DNA of 64,000 bases from Hyalangium gracile (lineage in GTDB: Bacteria; Myxococcota; Myxococcia; Myxococcales; Myxococcaceae), in NCBI RefSeq assembly GCF_020103725.1, contig NZ_JAHXBG010000009.1:124001-188000 (forward strand), given 5' to 3'. The position numbers were made by a program, and so were the translations under genes. The notes beneath the pieces are model-generated. The model was not told the DNA's origin. It did no database searches and saw nothing but the letters and a program-made list of their open reading frames with translations. Below, in pieces: positions 6,146 through 28,963 of this stretch; position 1 is the first letter of the stretch; each line of letters starts with the position of its first letter.

Positions 6146-6571
6146 ATGTCACGCGCAGTCCTGATCGCAGCCCTGGGCTTCTCGTTGTTCGCAGGCTGTG
6201 GCGGACCCAAGAGCAGTCCCGAGGGGACGGTGAAGTCCTTCTACTCCACCATCGAGTCCCAGGACTGGTTGGATCTGGCCGAGATGGTCGACGCGGACAG
6301 CCTGTCGAAGTCCGGCGGCCCTCAGCGCGTCGCGGCCTTCTACTACAGCATCTTCCAGGACGTCCGGGACATCGACCTCACCATCGAGGAGGCGCTCGTG
6401 CAGGTCCCGAACCAGCAGGCGGCGGTGAAGTTCAAGTGCACCGCCACCTTCCGCGCGCTCGGCGAGATGCCGTACGACCGCGACTGCTCGGACATCCTCC
6501 CCCTGAGGTGGCGAGACGGGAAGTGGTACATCGTGGTGCCCGGCACCGGCGGACTGCGGCCCTCGCTCTAG
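6146..6571 (+). CDS. Small lipoprotein with NTF2/DUF4878-like fold
   Basis: A 141-residue lipoprotein. The signal sequence ends in LFAGC, placing the lipidated Cys near residue 18. The mature part begins a helix with GTVKSFYSTIESQDW and ends in a strand containing WRDGKWYIV, the pattern of small cone-shaped NTF2-like domains such as DUF4878. Two Cys (KCTATF, RDCSD) may form a disulfide. The start ATG 6146 has GGAGGAG eight bases upstream. No enzymatic residues are evident. It diverges from the cytochrome gene and converges on fumC. Confidence 0.75.
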   Translation: MSRAVLIAALGFSLFAGCGGPKSSPEGTVKSFYSTIESQDWLDLAEMVDADSLSKSGGPQRVAAFYYSIFQDVRDIDLTIEEALVQVPNQQAAVKFKCTATFRALGEMPYDRDCSDILPLRWRDGKWYIVVPGTGGLRPSL

Positions 6572-21426: not shown

Positions 21427-22401
21427 TCAGTTCTTCTGGCGCTCTCGGAGCGCTCGAGCCGCGTCGCGAAAGACCTTGGCGCTGACCGACTCCTCCGGAC
21501 AGTGATCCGTCAGGAACGCAGCATCCTCGGGGCGCCCTACCAGCTCGAGGATGGTAGCCGCGCGCAGAGATGGGTCTGGATAGGTGGTCACGATCACCTC
21601 GAGAGCCAAAGCTCGCAGCGCGGAGCGCAGCGCCTCAGGCGCTGCACCCACGAAGCGGTCCCGATCCTGTAGGAGCACACTGAACAAGCGCTCGCAGTAG
21701 GTTCTGGCATCCGAGCGGGCGTCCTTCATCTGCCCGCTCACGGCCTGCGCCGTGGCAATGAACGCGGGCATCACGGTCAGCAGTTCGTCGGGTACATCTT
21801 CCTCGGCGACCGCGAGCACCTTCCGCTTGTGCGCCAGGCTCACGGACGAGTCACGTACCCATGCATCGAGCTCCTCTGGTGACTTCTCCAGCAGTGTCAG
21901 CAGTCCGTGAAGACCGTGCGGCGCCTGCAAGGTGAGTTTCTCCAGGCTCGCACGCACGGCGGGAATCAGATCCGGGTGCCGTTTCCTCCAGAGGGCTTCC
22001 GCCAGATCGTTGACGTCCGCGAGTTCCGGCTTGCCGGCCACGAGCCGCTCCAGCCTCTTCACCAGGCTCGCCCTGGCTTTCGCTCCGTTGATGCGACCGA
22101 GCGCGCGAGTGATGTCCTCCACGACAGCAGCCCCGTCGTAATCCCCACGCGCTTCCTCGATGGCAAGTTGTGCCTCCAGGCGTTTGACGCTGGCGGCTCC
22201 TCCCAGCTCCCCCAGCCCGAAGGCCGCTGCCTGCCGTACGAGACCATCCGTGTGGGTCAGCATCGTCTCCAACGCCGCCCGCACCTGCCGAGGTCCCGAG
22301 CCAAGCTGGCGCATCAGGCTGCGGACCTGTGCCTCATCCCCCAGCTTGAACATCCGAACCAGCTCTTCCTGGATCTGCGTCACATCCGCCATGCGTGCCA
22401 T
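21427..22401 (-). CDS. HEAT-repeat protein
   Basis: A 324-residue all-helical protein. The N-terminal half shows PBS/HEAT-type repeats, for example THTDGLVRQAAAFGLGELGG and VEDITRALGRINGAKARASL. The C-terminal half is helical and ends in a domain scoring damage-like loss (GRPEDAAFLTDHC). No signal peptide or membrane helix, so a cytosolic interaction scaffold is inferred. Codon use is less GC-biased in places than the neighbours, which may reflect later acquisition. ATG 22401; a second ATG three codons in is possible. Confidence 0.7.
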   Translation of the reverse strand: MARMADVTQIQEELVRMFKLGDEAQVRSLMRQLGSGPRQVRAALETMLTHTDGLVRQAAAFGLGELGGAASVKRLEAQLAIEEARGDYDGAAVVEDITRALGRINGAKARASLVKRLERLVAGKPELADVNDLAEALWRKRHPDLIPAVRASLEKLTLQAPHGLHGLLTLLEKSPEELDAWVRDSSVSLAHKRKVLAVAEEDVPDELLTVMPAFIATAQAVSGQMKDARSDARTYCERLFSVLLQDRDRFVGAAPEALRSALRALALEVIVTTYPDPSLRAATILELVGRPEDAAFLTDHCPEESVSAKVFRDAARALRERQKN

Positions 22402-22521: not shown

Positions 22522-23616
22522 TCAGGGGCGCCGGACGATGCGGTGCGTTCCTCGCAGCAGCTCCAGCCAGCGCTCACCCGCCTCGAGCGGGGAGCCTCGT
22601 GGATCCACCAGCGCCAGCGGCAGGTGAGTCTCCGGACGCACCCCATCCAGCGAGGTGGGGTCCAGCTCCAGCACTCCCCCTCCCTCCAACGCCACCCGCA
22701 CCCAGGCATGAGGACGCGCCGGGCCTCCGTCCACCACCAGCAGGCCGTGCACCATCCCTACCTTGTGCCCGAGCTTCGCCGCCTCCGCCGCGAAGCGCAG
22801 CGCGTGGGCCAGGCACCCTCCCGCCTCGCCCTCTCCTCCCTCGCGCCAGTCCGCCGCCCCCGGGCCCTTCTCCGGAAAGGCCGCATGCACCCGCTTCGCC
22901 AGCGCTCGGGCCGCGGCCGCATCCCACGGCGTCATCCCCGGCAGCCGCTCTGCCACCGGCCAGGCCGGCACGAAGGTCAGCGCTCCCCGCTCGCCCTCCA
23001 CCGGCACGCCCTCCGCGAACAGCTCCGGCGGCGCGCGCAGCCGCTCGCCCGAAGCCGCCACCGTGAACCGGGACTCGCCCACCTCCAGCACCTCGAGCCG
23101 CCCCTTCGCGTCGTACCGGGCCTGGAAGGGCGTGCCCATCATCACCCCCTCCACCACCCGCTCCCGAACGGCCGTGACACAGTGCGGCCCCTCGCGGCCC
23201 GTCAGCTCCTCCCGCCCCGTCACACAGCCCGCGCGCGGCGGCCCCCGCCACAGCCACAGCGCCTGCGGCACGCTCTGCGTCCCCTCCACCCGGCCCCGCG
23301 CATCCACCGTGAGCTTCACTTCCCGTGTCAGTGCCCCCACCTTCCCCTCTCGCGTGTGCAGGTGGACCGACGTATAGGTGAAGCGTCCCTCCGCTCTCGC
23401 CAGCGTCACCGTCCCCACCGGCACCCCGCGCCACGCGAAGAGGTAACGTGTTGGGTCCTCTCCCCCCTGGGGCAAGGCGGACCCTCCCCCTGAAAACCCT
23501 GTCGACGTGGCAGGTAGGACCAGGGAAAGGCAGACGAGCAGGGCCCACCCCGGCCCCCGACATGAACGGTTTTGAGGAACGGCGCGGAAAGGCGGAGTAG
23601 CTTCGCGGCTGCTCAT
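22522..23616 (-). CDS. Exported transglutaminase-like (papain-fold) protein
   Basis: About 364 residues. A signal peptide (WALLVCLSLVLPATSTG) follows a 20-residue cytosolic lead. The N-terminal half is strand-rich, with a DUF-like beta region. The C-terminal part carries the transglutaminase-like triad: Cys in GGCLAHA, His in RPHAWVRV and Asp in LELDPTS. Such enzymes are usually periplasmic proteases or amidases. ATG 23616 shares two bases with the ATG of the divergent chemoreceptor gene; an ATG at 23703 would overlap that gene further. No good ribosome site supports either. Confidence 0.72.
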   Translation of the reverse strand: MSSREATPPFRAVPQNRSCRGPGWALLVCLSLVLPATSTGFSGGGSALPQGGEDPTRYLFAWRGVPVGTVTLARAEGRFTYTSVHLHTREGKVGALTREVKLTVDARGRVEGTQSVPQALWLWRGPPRAGCVTGREELTGREGPHCVTAVRERVVEGVMMGTPFQARYDAKGRLEVLEVGESRFTVAASGERLRAPPELFAEGVPVEGERGALTFVPAWPVAERLPGMTPWDAAAARALAKRVHAAFPEKGPGAADWREGGEGEAGGCLAHALRFAAEAAKLGHKVGMVHGLLVVDGGPARPHAWVRVALEGGGVLELDPTSLDGVRPETHLPLALVDPRGSPLEAGERWLELLRGTHRIVRRP

Positions 23617-26600
23617 GGGAGCCAAACGGTACCTCTTCGGCTTCGGCCTCGGTGGAGGGCTCGCAACCGCGCTGATTCTAGGCGGGCTGCTGCGCGCGTT
23701 CACGGGAGAGCCGCGCTCCCTCGGAGGATGGCTCCTCCTCCTGCTGCTCCTGCCGTCGCTCTACCTGCTGGGTGGGTGGCTCACCTGGTACGCCTGGGCC
23801 GGACGACGCCTGCGCATGCGCCGCCGCGTCATCACCCGCCTGGCCGAGGGCGATCTCGCCATCTCCACCCGCGACGAGTTCGAGGGGCGCGATGACGTGC
23901 ACCGCCTCCTCGTCTCCCTGCGCCGCGCCATCTCCCAGGTCCAGCGCGTCACCGTCAACCTGCACCGCACCAGCACCAGCGTCTCGGACCAGGCCCGCAT
24001 GCTGATGGAGGCCGCGCGGCGCCAGGGCCTGGCGGTGGACCACTCCCTGGGCGCCGTCACGAGCATGGGCGAGAGCCTCCACGCCACCGGCCAGCGCGTG
24101 GGGCAGATGGACTCGTTCGCCGATGAGACGACCAACGCCCTGGGCGAGATGACGGAGCGGCTCCAGCAGGTGGGCCACGCCCTCTCCATCCTCGACGAGT
24201 TCTCCCACAACACCAGCGAGCTGGTGCAGGCCATGAGCGAGCGCCTGGCCCACATCGCCATGGCCGGCGACGAGCTGGCGCGCTTCGCCAACGAGGCCGA
24301 GAGCTTCGTCTCCGTGGTCAGCACCGGCATCGACGCCGTGCGCCGCCGCGCCAGCGAGACGAACGAGCTGTCCATGGCGGTGACGGAGACCGCCCAGCGC
24401 GGCGAGGAGCTCGTCAACGACAGCGTCAAGGGCATGTACCGCGTCGAGGAGACGGTGCGCAAAGCCGCGGAGATCGTCGACTCGCTCGGCGTGCGCTCCA
24501 CGGAGATCGGCCGCATCGTCGACGTCATCCAGGAGATCGCCGATCAGACGAAGCTGCTGGCGCTCAATGCCTCCATCATCGCCGCGCAGGCCGGCGAGCA
24601 CGGGCGCCCCTTCGGCGTGGTGGCCAACGAGATCCGCGGGCTGGCCGAGCGCACCGCGCGCTCCACGCGGGAGATCGCCTCCATGGTCACCGGCGTGCGC
24701 GAGGCGGTGGGCACCGCCGTGGCGCTGGTGAAGGAGGGCCGAGCGCAGGCGACCATCGGCGTCCAGTTGGGAGACCGGGCCGCCGCCGCGCTGGTGGAGA
24801 TCCGCAGCATCACCCAGCGCACCTTCGCGGCCGTGGAGTCCACCGTCGAGGAGACCAAGCGCCTGGAGCAGCACGGCTCCTCCGTGGCGGAGGCCAGCCG
24901 CCGGGTGGCGCTGCAGGTGGACGACGTGACGCGCGCTGCCATCGAGCAGGTGGGGCACGCGCGCGAGCTGGTGCGCCAGACGGGCGAGATGGCGCGGCTG
25001 GCCCGAGAGGCCACGGACAAGGTGGAGGGCCAGGCCCGCACCGGCCACCAGCTCTCCGAGGCCGTGGTGCGGCTGACGGCCGCCATCGACGACATCCGCA
25101 AGGCGCACGGCGTGCTCACCCGGGGCGAGACGGCCATCCGCGAGGAGGTCTCCCGCGTGCGCGAGGACGCCCGCCGCGTCATCCGCATCGGCGACGAGCT
25201 GAGCCGCACGGTGGATCAGCTCGGCAACGAGACGGTGAGCCTGGAGGCGGAGGTGTTCCGCTTCCGCCTGCCCCGGCCTCGGCCCGGCGGAGAGCTGCGC
25301 ATCGGCATCCACCAGGCGGCGGCGCTGCGCGCTCGCAACACCCTGGATCCGCTCTTCAGCGTGGAGAACCAGCTGGCGGAGATCTGCGCGTGCGTCTTCA
25401 CCAGCCTGCTCCGGCTGGAGGATGGCGTGCTGGCGCCGGACCTGGCCGAGCGGTGGGAGATGGACTCCTCGGCCCGCGTCTTCCGCTTCTTCCTGCGCCG
25501 CAACGTCACCTTCCACGACGGGGTGCGGCTGACGGCGTTCGACGTGAAGCGCCACTTCGAGCGGCTGCTGAGCCCGGACGTGCGCTCGCCGGACCGCACC
25601 CTGCTGGAGGACATCGCCGGCGTGCCCGACTACGTCAACGGCACCGCGCGGGAAGTCACCGGCCTGCACGCCATCGACGATGGGACGCTGGAGATCCGGC
25701 TCCGGGAGCCCAAGGCCTTCTTCCTCCACCTGCTGACGCTCCCTCCCACGGCCATCGCCCGCGAGGACAGCAGCGGGCGGCTGCTGGGCACCGGCCCCTA
25801 TCGGCTGGACCGCTTCGACACGGAGCGCGTCACCCTCGAGCGCAACCCCACCTACTTCCGCGAGGGGATGCCGCTGCTGGATCGGCTCGAGTTCCGGCTG
25901 CTGGACTCCAGGCAGGCCGCCGTCGAGCAGTTCCAGGCCGGCCAGGTGGACTTCATCTCCTACCTCCACGCCGAGCACGCCCGGGCTCCCGGCATGGAGA
26001 TGTTCCAGGTCATCGCCAGCTCCACGCCCTCCACCTCCTTCGTGGGCCTCAACCTGCGCGAGCCGCTCTACGACGACGTGCGCGTGCGCCAGGCCATCCG
26101 CGCCGGCGTGGACATCCCCCGCCTGGTGGAGCGCTTCCACCCTGGCGCGCGCATGGCCTCCACGCTCACTCCGCCGGAGCTGTTGCAGGACTCGAGCCCC
26201 GCCACCGTGTCGGGCCCGGACGTGGCCCGGGCCGAGCAGCTGCTGCGCGAGGCGGGCGTGCGCAAGATTCCCCTCACCATCTACTACCCCGCCGGGCGAG
26301 ACACCTCCGAGGAGGATCAGGTGCTGTTCGCGCCGCTCATCGAGGCGGGCCTGCTGGAGCTCCACCATGTGGAGCTGCCGCCGCAGGACTACACGACGCG
26401 GCTGCGCGCCGGGCGCATCCCCGCCTTCCGGACGCTGTGGCTCGCCGACTACCCGGACCCGGACAACTTCCTCTACTTCCTGCTGAACTCCAGCGCGCAG
26501 ACCATCTACCCGCTCGGCTACCAGAACCCGGAGCTGGACAAGCTGACGGCCGAGGCTCGCATCTCCATCGATCCCGAGCGGCGCCACGAGCTCTACCGCC

Positions 26601-26761
26601 GCGCCGAGGAGATCTTCGAGAGGGACTGCCCGCTCATCCCGCTGTACCACGACCGCATCTACGCCGTGGCGAGCCCCACGGTGCAGGACGTGCGGCTGCA
26701 CATGACGCCGCCCCAGGTGCGCTTCGAGGACCTGTGGCTCGACACGGATACCCGGCCCTGA
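23615..26761 (+). CDS. Chemoreceptor fused to a C-terminal family 5 solute-binding domain
   Basis: A 1048-residue single frame. Two membrane helices (about 8-28 and 38-58) are separated by only about nine residues, so there is no periplasmic sensor. A HAMP domain (about 58-112) leads to a long MCP coiled coil with hairpin tip IADQTKLLALNAS (about 308-322) and GEHGRPFGVVANEIRGLAERT after it. From about 557 to the end lies a complete SBP_bac_5 (peptide/nickel-binding) domain: GGELRIGI, FRFFLRRNVTFHDG, LGTGPY, DVRVRQAI, WLADYPDPDNFLYFLL. By topology this binding domain is cytosolic. Inference: it senses an internal peptide-like ligand and reports through CheW/CheA. No che gene is adjacent. Confidence 0.88.
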   Translation: MGAKRYLFGFGLGGGLATALILGGLLRAFTGEPRSLGGWLLLLLLLPSLYLLGGWLTWYAWAGRRLRMRRRVITRLAEGDLAISTRDEFEGRDDVHRLLVSLRRAISQVQRVTVNLHRTSTSVSDQARMLMEAARRQGLAVDHSLGAVTSMGESLHATGQRVGQMDSFADETTNALGEMTERLQQVGHALSILDEFSHNTSELVQAMSERLAHIAMAGDELARFANEAESFVSVVSTGIDAVRRRASETNELSMAVTETAQRGEELVNDSVKGMYRVEETVRKAAEIVDSLGVRSTEIGRIVDVIQEIADQTKLLALNASIIAAQAGEHGRPFGVVANEIRGLAERTARSTREIASMVTGVREAVGTAVALVKEGRAQATIGVQLGDRAAAALVEIRSITQRTFAAVESTVEETKRLEQHGSSVAEASRRVALQVDDVTRAAIEQVGHARELVRQTGEMARLAREATDKVEGQARTGHQLSEAVVRLTAAIDDIRKAHGVLTRGETAIREEVSRVREDARRVIRIGDELSRTVDQLGNETVSLEAEVFRFRLPRPRPGGELRIGIHQAAALRARNTLDPLFSVENQLAEICACVFTSLLRLEDGVLAPDLAERWEMDSSARVFRFFLRRNVTFHDGVRLTAFDVKRHFERLLSPDVRSPDRTLLEDIAGVPDYVNGTAREVTGLHAIDDGTLEIRLREPKAFFLHLLTLPPTAIAREDSSGRLLGTGPYRLDRFDTERVTLERNPTYFREGMPLLDRLEFRLLDSRQAAVEQFQAGQVDFISYLHAEHARAPGMEMFQVIASSTPSTSFVGLNLREPLYDDVRVRQAIRAGVDIPRLVERFHPGARMASTLTPPELLQDSSPATVSGPDVARAEQLLREAGVRKIPLTIYYPAGRDTSEEDQVLFAPLIEAGLLELHHVELPPQDYTTRLRAGRIPAFRTLWLADYPDPDNFLYFLLNSSAQTIYPLGYQNPELDKLTAEARISIDPERRHELYRRAEEIFERDCPLIPLYHDRIYAVASPTVQDVRLHMTPPQVRFEDLWLDTDTRP

Positions 26762-26824: not shown

Positions 26825-28963
26825 TCAGGGCACGGCGCGCCGGTTCCCCGAGACACCGTGTCGCTGGGGCCAGCCTCGCGTCTCGGCGACTCCGAATGAG
26901 CCCAGGTCGAACGCCTCGAGCCGCCACACGCCCTCGCGCTCGAGGACGACATAGAGGTAGCGACCTACGTGCGTCGCGCCCGCGATGCGGGGCCGGTCCT
27001 TCAGCGGGCAGATCGCCACCCGCTCTCCCTGGGCGAAGAGCTGGACGTGGGCCATCGGGCCCCCATCCAGGGCCACGTCCGTGAGCGTGCCCACCGCGCC
27101 TCCTTGCACCAGCGAGGCCTGATGGAGCGTGCCAGGAGCATCCACGGGTAGCACGGAGACCTCCCAGGCCGCCTCCCCCGTCCGCGCATCCATCGCCCGC
27201 AGTACCAGCCGCTCGAGCTCGCGCGGACAGGGCGCGCCGCCGTCCGGGCACGTCCGCGCGAAGGCATAGCCCACGTCGTTCAGCAGGAGCGCCGGCTCGT
27301 CAATCGGAGTGAGCTGCCGCACGCCCCCATCCCAGGAGACGCGCGCCAGGCTCCCGCCATCCGTGCTGGCGAAGAGCCTGGCTCCCGCGAAGAGCCGTCC
27401 TCCCGCCACCGCCAGCGAGGAGCCACCCTCCTCCTCCACGTCCACCAGCGGGAGGGTGACGAAGCCCGTGCCCGCATCGTTCGGCGCCGGCTCGGCCCGC
27501 GAGACACGCCCGGCTCCCTCGGCGCACAGCAGCACCGTGCCCTGCTCCTCGAGCGCCACGCGCGCGCCCTCGCCGCCAAAGCCCTCCACGGGTCCAGCCC
27601 GGCGCACACCGCCGTCCGTGCCGAGCACCACGAGCGTCGCAGGCCATCCCGGCGTGCCCGCATCCATGCCTCCATCACCCGTCACACCGGCGTCCTCGGG
27701 CCCCCGCCACGACACGAGCGCCACCACCTCGCCCTCGGCCGTCAGCGCCACTTGGCCCGCTCCCGTCGAAGGCGCCACGCCTCCATCGCGCGCGGCTTCA
27801 TCCGCCAGCGGGAACTGCCAGAGGCGCTGGCCCGGACCGGCCAGGGAGTAGCTCTCCAAGGCCTCGGGCTCGCGCATCAGGACGCCCGCGTCGGACACGG
27901 TCAGCAGCGTGCGCGGCCCTCCATCCTCATAGGGGGCCTCGAAGCGCAGCAGGCCGTTCTCCGTGAAGGCCACCAGCCGGCAGCCCGCATCCTCCGCGCA
28001 CACGGAGGTGTAGAGCGATTGCCCGTGGACGAGCAGGACGGGCCCTCCAGGCTCCGCCACGGGCACCCCACCGAGCGTCTGCGAGAAGAGCGCGGGCAGC
28101 TCCTCCGGCTCCGGCCGGACACACTCTCCCGAGGTGCACTTGCCCTCGCCCTGACAGGGAATGGCGGGCGCGCACAGGAAACCCTCGGGAGTGGGGAAGG
28201 TACTGCAGGTGCCTCCGAAGCAGAGGTCCGCCGTCTTGCAGTCCGCACTGCCGCAGAGGCTGAAGTCCTCCGCGTCCTGCTCGCCACAGCCGCTCGTCCG
28301 CCGGCACACCCCCACCTTGCACGGGTTCGAGGGCCGAGGGCATATGACGGGCGTCGTCACACAGCCCTCCGTGGGCGAGCACGCATCCACCGTGCACGGA
28401 TCGTCGTCGTCACACAGGCGCGGCGCTCCGACGCACACGCCCTGCTGGCAGCGCCCCCGCTCCTCGCACCGGCTGGTCGGGATGCAGATGGTCCCGTCCG
28501 GCGCCAGCGTCTCCACGCAGATGCCGGGCTCGAGCTCGAAGCGGGACTCGCGGCACTGCATCGTGGGCATGCAGGCCAGCGGCCTCACCCCTTCCCCCCT
28601 GAGCACGACGGTCTCGGTGCGACGGCCCGAGGTGAGCACCAGCGTCCCCTCCACCGGCGTGTCCCCCGCGGTGAACACCACCTCCAACCCCACCGTCCCG
28701 CCTCCCGGCACGGACGCGGAGCTCTCCGTCACGGAGAAGGGACTGCCCGTGGTCGCCGTCACCGTGACGCCAGCGCGCCCGGTGCCCACCAGCGTCACCG
28801 TGCGGCGTGACTGCTCGCCCTCCAGCACCCGGCCGAAGTCCACCTCCGTCTCCTGCGGACGGAAGTCCCCTCGCGCCCCGCCGAGGCCTGGATCGTCACA
28901 CCGGCAGGCGCCGGCAAGCACGAGCGCCACGAGGAACAGGAGCCAGGGCCGATTGCGGAGCAT
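26825..28963 (-). CDS. Large surface lipoprotein with choice-of-anchor-like domain, Cys-rich repeats and beta-propeller-like region
   Basis: A 712-residue lipoprotein. The lipobox LAGAC sits at about 16-20, followed by two more Cys-Asp. Residues about 35-125 resemble the ASPM/Hydin-like Ig fold common in myxobacterial secreted proteins (FGRVLEGEQSRRTVTLVGTG). About 130-285 is Cys-rich with DDPCTVDACSP-like units, as in Dickkopf/EGF-like repeats. About 290-700 has blade-like strands with AWEVSVLPVDA and GRYLYVVLEREGVWRLEAF, a PQQ-like propeller pattern. Likely displayed on the cell surface as a binding scaffold. ATG 28963. It converges on the chemoreceptor gene. Confidence 0.75.
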   Translation of the reverse strand: MLRNRPWLLFLVALVLAGACRCDDPGLGGARGDFRPQETEVDFGRVLEGEQSRRTVTLVGTGRAGVTVTATTGSPFSVTESSASVPGGGTVGLEVVFTAGDTPVEGTLVLTSGRRTETVVLRGEGVRPLACMPTMQCRESRFELEPGICVETLAPDGTICIPTSRCEERGRCQQGVCVGAPRLCDDDDPCTVDACSPTEGCVTTPVICPRPSNPCKVGVCRRTSGCGEQDAEDFSLCGSADCKTADLCFGGTCSTFPTPEGFLCAPAIPCQGEGKCTSGECVRPEPEELPALFSQTLGGVPVAEPGGPVLLVHGQSLYTSVCAEDAGCRLVAFTENGLLRFEAPYEDGGPRTLLTVSDAGVLMREPEALESYSLAGPGQRLWQFPLADEAARDGGVAPSTGAGQVALTAEGEVVALVSWRGPEDAGVTGDGGMDAGTPGWPATLVVLGTDGGVRRAGPVEGFGGEGARVALEEQGTVLLCAEGAGRVSRAEPAPNDAGTGFVTLPLVDVEEEGGSSLAVAGGRLFAGARLFASTDGGSLARVSWDGGVRQLTPIDEPALLLNDVGYAFARTCPDGGAPCPRELERLVLRAMDARTGEAAWEVSVLPVDAPGTLHQASLVQGGAVGTLTDVALDGGPMAHVQLFAQGERVAICPLKDRPRIAGATHVGRYLYVVLEREGVWRLEAFDLGSFGVAETRGWPQRHGVSGNRRAVP

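Follow-up and report, generated by a model that had tools for sequence, protein, structure and literature searches.

A McpK-type chemoreceptor fusion in Hyalangium gracile with a predicted cytosolic SBP_bac_5 domain, and its relatives in Myxococcota and Acidobacteriota

Binding proteins of the SBP_bac_5 type are normally extracellular parts, and their use by a chemoreceptor within the cell would be an unusual placement. The peptide binders OppA, MppA and DppA are exported and have ABC importers as partners. The SgrR (and DsvR) regulators, by contrast with exported members of the family, carry a C-terminal SBP_bac_5 domain within a cytosolic regulator. In Myxococcus xanthus, the orphan chemoreceptor McpK (MXAN_6456; 1048 aa) is listed with a "bacterial extracellular solute-binding proteins domain" and no HAMP domain, and is the sole receptor with an SBP domain among the 21 in Table 1 of that study (Moine et al., 2014; PMC3945109). 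Receptors of the DifA and FrzCD type in the same table likewise have no periplasmic sensor, an internal or unknown input and a short or no membrane anchor, but they have no SBP domain, and the hairpin arms of DifA are longer than those of McpK.

The accessible text of that study gives no ligand or interaction for McpK. Section 7 names the receptor mutants without a defect (McpG, I, J, L and Mcp4), which do not include McpK, and McpK is also outside the list of mutants with S-motility defects; mcpL is in both lists, hence the lists are not fully consistent (PMC3945109). By exclusion from the lists in this text, we infer that a mcpK mutant has a defect, probably a developmental one. Our searches found no other relevant paper on McpK in Myxococcus and none at all for MXAN_6456; in the literature searched, where coverage of subscription papers was limited, no cytosolic-SBP chemoreceptor was found. 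McpK itself has been in print since 2014 (PMC3945109), and we found no description, there in the accessible text or elsewhere, of internal (cytosolic) sensing, of a wider family, of relatives without transmembrane (TM) segments, of an SBP branch inside the cell that serves other outputs, of the Asp conservation described below, or of a doubt on the DifA link. Here we analyze a McpK-type receptor of Hyalangium gracile, which is best explained as a gauge of internal peptides or amino acids that drives a CheA array, a reading to which we give a probability of roughly 55%.

The window, i.e., the whole stretch of DNA analyzed (64,000 nucleotides), contains a fusion gene that forms a single frame of 1048 codons plus TGA, with no internal stops (Table 1). 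By Pfam, the encoded protein has an MCPsignal domain at residues 252-431 (E 4.9e-31; 108.3 bits vs. a curated cut-off of 34.6) and an SBP_bac_5 domain (PF00496) at residues 607-961 (E 1.4e-61; 209.1 bits vs. 32.4), both far above cut-off. When the second half was compared with PDB sequences, peptide-binding proteins matched best. An AlphaFold2 model, calculated as a monomer without membrane (mean pLDDT 77.2), exhibits helices at residues 2-30 and 36-77, a long hairpin (92-325/331-547) with breaks at 206-243 and 406-443 where pLDDT falls below 50, and a two-lobed SBP fold from about residue 556 with pLDDT mostly of 85-95. In a fold search with this model, MppA (3o9p) aligned from residue 553 (Z 33.5, rmsd 2.5, 483 residues), which indicates that the SBP domain is complete; the top matches include MppA, OppA, DppA and other peptide binders, with Z scores of about 33. 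The frame, the Pfam matches and this alignment all agree with the initial annotation, in which one 1048-residue frame joins a receptor to a complete SBP_bac_5 domain.

The MCP part forms the antiparallel coiled-coil hairpin with a conserved tip, although the E and R of the tip read I and Q. The tip sequence is IADQTKLLALNAS, exactly as annotated initially. The HAMP domain of that annotation fared less well: Pfam reported none at E 0.01, but a HAMP-like stretch containing GDL (G79, D80, L81) is near-invariant among relatives. The N-terminal DNA-binding domain of the SgrR family was absent from the window protein, both by Pfam and in the AlphaFold2 model.

Table 1. Features of the fusion gene in the window, with residue ranges of the encoded protein.
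Feature	Position in window	Strand	Basis
McpK-type fusion gene, 1048 aa, MCP + SBP_bac_5	23615..26761	+	frame, Pfam, orthologs
Membrane helix 1, ~residues 7-27	23633..23695	+	hydropathy; helix 2-30 in AlphaFold2 model
Short outer loop, ~9 residues, without periplasmic sensor	23696..23722	+	hydropathy, model
Membrane helix 2, ~residues 37-60	23723..23794	+	sequence, hydropathy, model
HAMP-like segment 61-112, GDL motif near-invariant	23795..23950	+	conservation, model; below Pfam report at E 0.01
MCP coiled-coil hairpin 113-547	23951..25255	+	Pfam, hairpin alignment, model
Hairpin tip, residues 298-345	24506..24649	+	tip reading, alignment
Junction coil-to-SBP, 548-558	25256..25288	+	alignment
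Complete SBP_bac_5 domain 557-1045, peptide-binding-protein fold	25283..26749	+	Pfam, PDB sequence matches, fold searches
WLADYPDPDNF, 942-952	26438..26470	+	alignment, OppA comparison

The window protein is almost certainly the ortholog of M. xanthus McpK (MXAN_6456), a match that rests on the length of 1048 aa, the domains and their order, and the presence of one such gene per genome in most relatives, rather than on the MXAN_6456 sequence. Both are orphan MCPs with an SBP domain, and McpK is listed without a HAMP domain. In print, McpK has three TM segments, belongs to class 44H and is linked to DifA (PMC3945109), whereas the window protein has two TM segments, a hairpin without the DifA insert and a McpJ-like tip.

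Among 147 genomes of the class, searched at a threshold of E 1e-60 or better, 92 had a match to the fusion (88/96 in the family of the window and 4/51 outside it). Both parts lay in one open frame in 85 of these 92 genomes, with three of the 85 matches beginning late, at residues 23, 36 and 56; six genomes had only pieces at contig ends, and in one (G098) the gene was split by a frameshift at the junction. An assembly artefact, a hidden frameshift or stop, or a chimera is excluded by the 85 single-frame genomes, in line with the intact frame in the window. The frameshift in G098 (locus L136, ~6350-6370) may be a sequencing error or a real fission, and in another ortholog (L131, G103) the initial part of the gene lies in a different frame, either naturally or through a sequencing error. 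Four of the six genomes of genus g3 (G043, G044, G046, G047) had two matches each; in G046, both are partial and lie at the ends of contigs. For one of the second copies (L118), the neighborhood was a different one, with PLD-like, FHA and acyl-CoA synthetase-type genes.

The same fusion was found beyond the class, in a sample of 396 Acidobacteriota-group genomes drawn from the phylum of one Acidobacteriota locus: 42 matched at a threshold of 1e-45, and the match spanned both parts in 30. Twenty other Acidobacteriota-group rows listed comprised 14 SBP domains within frames of 1398-2317 residues, four SBP matches in shorter frames and two receptor-only matches. Contigs named among the relatives include Blastocatellia, Thermoanaerobaculum and Aminicenantes. 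Relatives of the fusion thus span two phyla, with identity down to 22-29%. We aligned 75 rows (64 Myxococcota and 11 Acidobacteriota-group), leaving out fragments and frameshifted loci (L042, L136, L147, L148) and same-genome second copies, and with the L126, L128 and L131 rows beginning at a later Met. Mean identity to the window protein over 63 rows was 0.49 for the TM segment, 0.61 for the SBP domain and 0.86 for the tip. The SBP part is under purifying selection, with dN/dS values of 0.23 and 0.37 in two pairs, in both of which it exceeded the value for the MCP part.

To place the receptor among its potential partners, we compared it with the other receptors of the same genome, which has 24, with 21 tips read (all but L219, L228 and L232). 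E and R/K occupy two tip positions in 19 of the 21, positions that we take to be the trimer contacts E385 and R388 of Tsr; McpK has I322 and Q325 there, and the receptor on contig 31 also has I and Q. From a comparison of length and domains with the published table (PMC3945109), the contig 31 receptor is probably McpJ-like and the contig 10 receptor (L216), which adjoins a CheW and a CheA, probably Mcp7-like. DifA was identified, partly by eye, from the cluster order MCP-CheW-CheY-CheA-CheC-like. In an alignment of the 21 hairpins, the McpJ-like and Mcp7-like hairpins were nearest to McpK (32.0 and 29.8% identity), as compared with 23.6% for DifA. DifA has 14 extra residues in each arm, whereas the return arm of McpK has the length seen in receptors without this insert, and both of its arms are collinear with those of the McpJ-like and Mcp7-like receptors.

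These data bear on the published proposal that McpK, placed with DifA in class 44H and group 1, signals with it through the Dif (exopolysaccharide) system (PMC3945109, section 8). Besides the shared class and group, DifA resembles McpK in its two-helix anchor with a short loop (by eye), and a DifA match is present in 91/92 McpK genomes. The hairpin length of DifA, published as class 44H, was nevertheless not found for McpK in our own alignment, DifA retains the tip E and R, for which only two of the 21 receptors read, McpK and the McpJ-like one, have I and Q, and DifA occurs in 42 genomes that lack McpK. The McpJ-like receptor was present in 90/92 McpK genomes and in 21 without McpK (E 1e-90 for both receptors), although co-occurrence with McpK is confounded by kinship for either one. 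On balance, a Dif partnership appears unlikely, and the hairpin comparison leads us to favor partnership with the McpJ- and Mcp7-like receptors, which are part of group 1, over the published DifA link and 44H class. Two published attributes of McpK that form the basis of its DifA assignment, i.e., three membrane segments and class 44H, are in doubt.

The SBP domain of McpK belongs to a branch that is also found beneath other heads. Four of seven other SBP fusions were scanned with Pfam, all of them large Acidobacteriota proteins with a C-terminal SBP_bac_5 domain (L236, L240, L241, L242): one was AAA_16-TPR-SBP, one OmpR-type Trans_reg_C-AAA_16-SBP, and two Ser/Thr kinase-AAA_16-SBP. They share the SBP branch of McpK and differ in their outputs, and no clear membrane segment was seen by hydropathy in any of the seven (top peak 1.74, in L238). 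No description of such kinase, AAA_16 or OmpR-head proteins was found in the literature searched for SBP_bac_5. In a tree of 96 SBP domains, the MCP-fused and other-head domains fell on one side and 60 free SBPs opposite (support 99), the free SBPs being those that surfaced in the homology search rather than an even sample; the domain labeled free in L059 comes from a fragment of an MCP fusion, with a match that spans residues 400-1043. A second tree, with E. coli SgrR, OppA, DppA, NikA and MppA added, dropped 29 of the 60 free SBPs (near-copies or long branches), which the first tree retains, and kept 31; it again grouped the 36 intracellular rows, with a support of 94 that the tool left unstarred.

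SgrR was outside the intracellular group, on a long, separate branch of unsure place. The initial annotation had named it as the nearest parallel, and this holds insofar as the same domain family sits beneath a DNA-binding head; unlike the window protein, however, SgrR has no MCP part, and E. coli SgrR has Asn at the position of the conserved Asp. It is possible, though we propose it tentatively, that an ancestor common to Myxococcota and Acidobacteriota, or exchanged between them, recruited SBP_bac_5 to the cytosol, where the domain became a sensor module of general use for amino-bearing ligands. Its outputs would number three or more, namely chemoreceptor arrays, Ser/Thr kinase-AAA proteins and OmpR-type regulators, with McpK as the chemoreceptor branch, through which a swarming predator would be guided by the peptide supply within its cells.

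Asp419 of OppA is presumably the clamp for the alpha-amino group of the ligand. This residue (numbering of D419 and W416 verified on the E. coli sequence) aligns with D945 of the window protein, a position occupied by D in 63/64 Myxococcota rows (N in one) and 11/11 Acidobacteriota-group rows. W942, D948, D950 and F952 are invariant in 75/75 rows. The equivalent of Asp419 is D in MppA and DppA, which share the fold of the window SBP domain, P in E. coli NikA and N in E. coli SgrR. At the other positions that we take to line the OppA pocket, most residues are changed (e.g., H replaces K307, T replaces H371 and P replaces W397), with R413 kept in most rows; the ligand may therefore be no ordinary peptide. 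The cytosolic SBP_bac_5-family domain of E. coli SgrR can bind glutamate, according to the accessible text of a preprint (PMC13060122). This agrees with an amino-bearing ligand for a family member located in the cytosol, though SgrR lacks the Asp.

Loss of these side chains would also be expected if the SBP domain no longer bound a ligand and served instead for protein-protein docking, e.g., to keep a partner enzyme or transporter component by the array. The higher dN/dS of the SBP part relative to the MCP part points in the same direction, as does the result that Pfam found no ABC permease among 25 neighbor genes (five in the window and 20 in nine related loci). Against this stand the retention of the Asp across two phyla despite the low identity of the most distant relatives, the two-lobed fold that remains intact in the prediction, and the repeated appearance of this domain beneath kinase and DNA-binding heads, which suggests a sensor. 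We therefore regard docking as improbable.

A receptor for nickel or another metal chelate is much less probable still: NikA has the same fold and is among the matches, but the first NikA-type chain ranked only 25th and 28th in two fold searches, below the peptide binders, and NikA has Pro where the Asp is retained. Of the peptide-like or nickel-like ligand suggested initially, the peptide-like part gains from the Asp shared with OppA, DppA and MppA, and nickel as a default was rejected. From the retained Asp, a ligand with a free alpha-amino group appears likelier than nickel. Digested prey had been put forward as its source; Acidobacteriota are not known as predators, and the presence of relatives in that phylum makes prey unlikely as the original source.

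An internal gauge presupposes that the SBP domain faces the cytosol. The window protein has only two hydrophobic peaks, both N-terminal, separated by the short loop predicted initially, and neither hydropathy nor the model gave any hydrophobic segment between the MCP hairpin and the SBP domain. The domain comes after the hairpin and has no export signal ahead of it, unlike OppA, MppA and DppA. K4 and R5 precede the first helix, R27 and R34 flank the loop, and seven Arg lie within residues 64-75, including an Arg-rich RRLRMRRR (64-71) directly after the second helix, as expected on the cytosolic side. Among orthologs, the two-helix hairpin is retained while its sequence drifts.

The strongest evidence comes from relatives without any anchor. 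Among 30 Acidobacteriota loci taken for TM reading, of which 10 were left unread by the filter and one (L178) was in the wrong frame, the N-terminal membrane helix was absent from the receptor-SBP protein in five of the 19 that were readable (L171, L175, L176, L177, L181). Four proteins (L046, L047, L049, L083), partly the same as these five, also combine receptor and SBP domain without this helix. In L047, L083, L176 and L181, one weak hydropathy peak (1.55-1.69) lies at about residue 650-680, within the SBP domain. Together with the kinase- and DNA-binding-head relatives, these proteins make a cytosolic SBP domain, as claimed initially, well supported by sequence comparison.

A third hydropathy peak, at ~353-371, was seen in seven orthologs of genus g19 (L019, L020, L021, L022, L027, L028, L033), which we take to be Myxococcus and Pyxidicoccus; it is missing from the window protein and from the other g19 orthologs. 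Since it lies inside the MCP hairpin, we take it as a false membrane segment, and it may explain the three TMHMM segments listed for McpK in Table 1 of PMC3945109, which would put the SBP domain outside. That the C-terminus is periplasmic and the domain a tethered ordinary binding protein, as this count and the seven peaks might imply, is scarcely credible and was ruled out by hydropathy and the TM-less relatives, the peak being just past the tip; no hairpin could form if the tip lay in the cytosol while the return arm crossed the membrane. A C-terminal McpK-GFP was not among the ten bright fusions listed in the accessible text, which decides nothing on topology (PMC3945109).

We thus return to the internal gauge. 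In the mechanism that we propose, the only evident sensor of this McpK-type receptor, the cytosolic SBP_bac_5 domain, would be joined through a short invariant junction to the returning MCP helix at its membrane-proximal end, and the two-helix anchor would do no more than tie the receptor to the membrane. The two-lobed domain would close on a cytosolic ligand that carries a free alpha-amino group, most likely a short peptide or amino-acid derivative; closure would shift the MCP helix and alter CheA activity in an array to which related receptors also belong. The junction has about 10 residues, and F550, P553, G558 and the next residue, G559, are identical in 75/75 rows. Because it is located at the membrane-proximal end of the hairpin, lobe closure could act directly on the helix. 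Our analysis shows the fusion and how widely it is conserved, the fold as predicted, the retained Asp and the existence of TM-less relatives, whereas we infer the ligand class, closure as the signal, the direction of CheA control and the partner array.

Adaptation may be absent from such a system. The window protein has no strict methylation motif in its whole length and one loose motif, at residue 768 inside the SBP domain, with neither type within 150 residues of the tip. A receptor that reports a level without adapting would fit this, but the sign is weak, since nine of the 20 other receptors read in this genome also have no strict motif near the tip, one other receptor of the 21 (L220) has neither type, and the McpK orthologs L016, L036 and L119 have one or two loose motifs.

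The order of genes around the fusion is largely kept in Myxococcaceae (40 loci; tblastn at E 1e-8, some matches short or distant), with a transglutaminase-like gene at 25, AstA at 23, VTT at 20 and a lipoprotein gene at 17. We set these neighbors aside as clues to function, as they name none and the conserved order looks like shared ancestry. The longest frame of the transglutaminase-like gene (window 22522-23703, minus strand) shares 89 bases with the beginning of the fusion gene, and its true start is therefore probably further in. Between this gene and AstA lies a HEAT-repeat gene (21427-22401) without a tblastn match at E 1e-8 in the 40 loci; as its two flanking genes stand side by side in two loci from the same genus, it is probably a local insertion. 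A large gene at 26825-28963, with matches to ASH/HYDIN-type Ig and Dictyostelium-type repeats, is near the fusion in 17/40 loci. In two Acidobacteriota, ACT-domain and DUF711 genes directly follow the MCP-SBP gene (L044, 9157-10933; L048, 9169-11061), and an alanine dehydrogenase gene lies beside a third; these neighbors give a weak hint of a possible amino-acid link.

The soluble domain makes a ligand search possible, with D945 as a named key residue and the TM-less relatives as natural soluble receptors. The likely role of the receptor would be to report the internal supply of peptides or amino acids to the control of motility and development. How myxobacteria, in which shortage of amino acids starts fruiting, connect their internal nutrient state with group motility and development is a question of long standing. 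If the proposed reading is true, McpK would provide a direct route from the one to the other.
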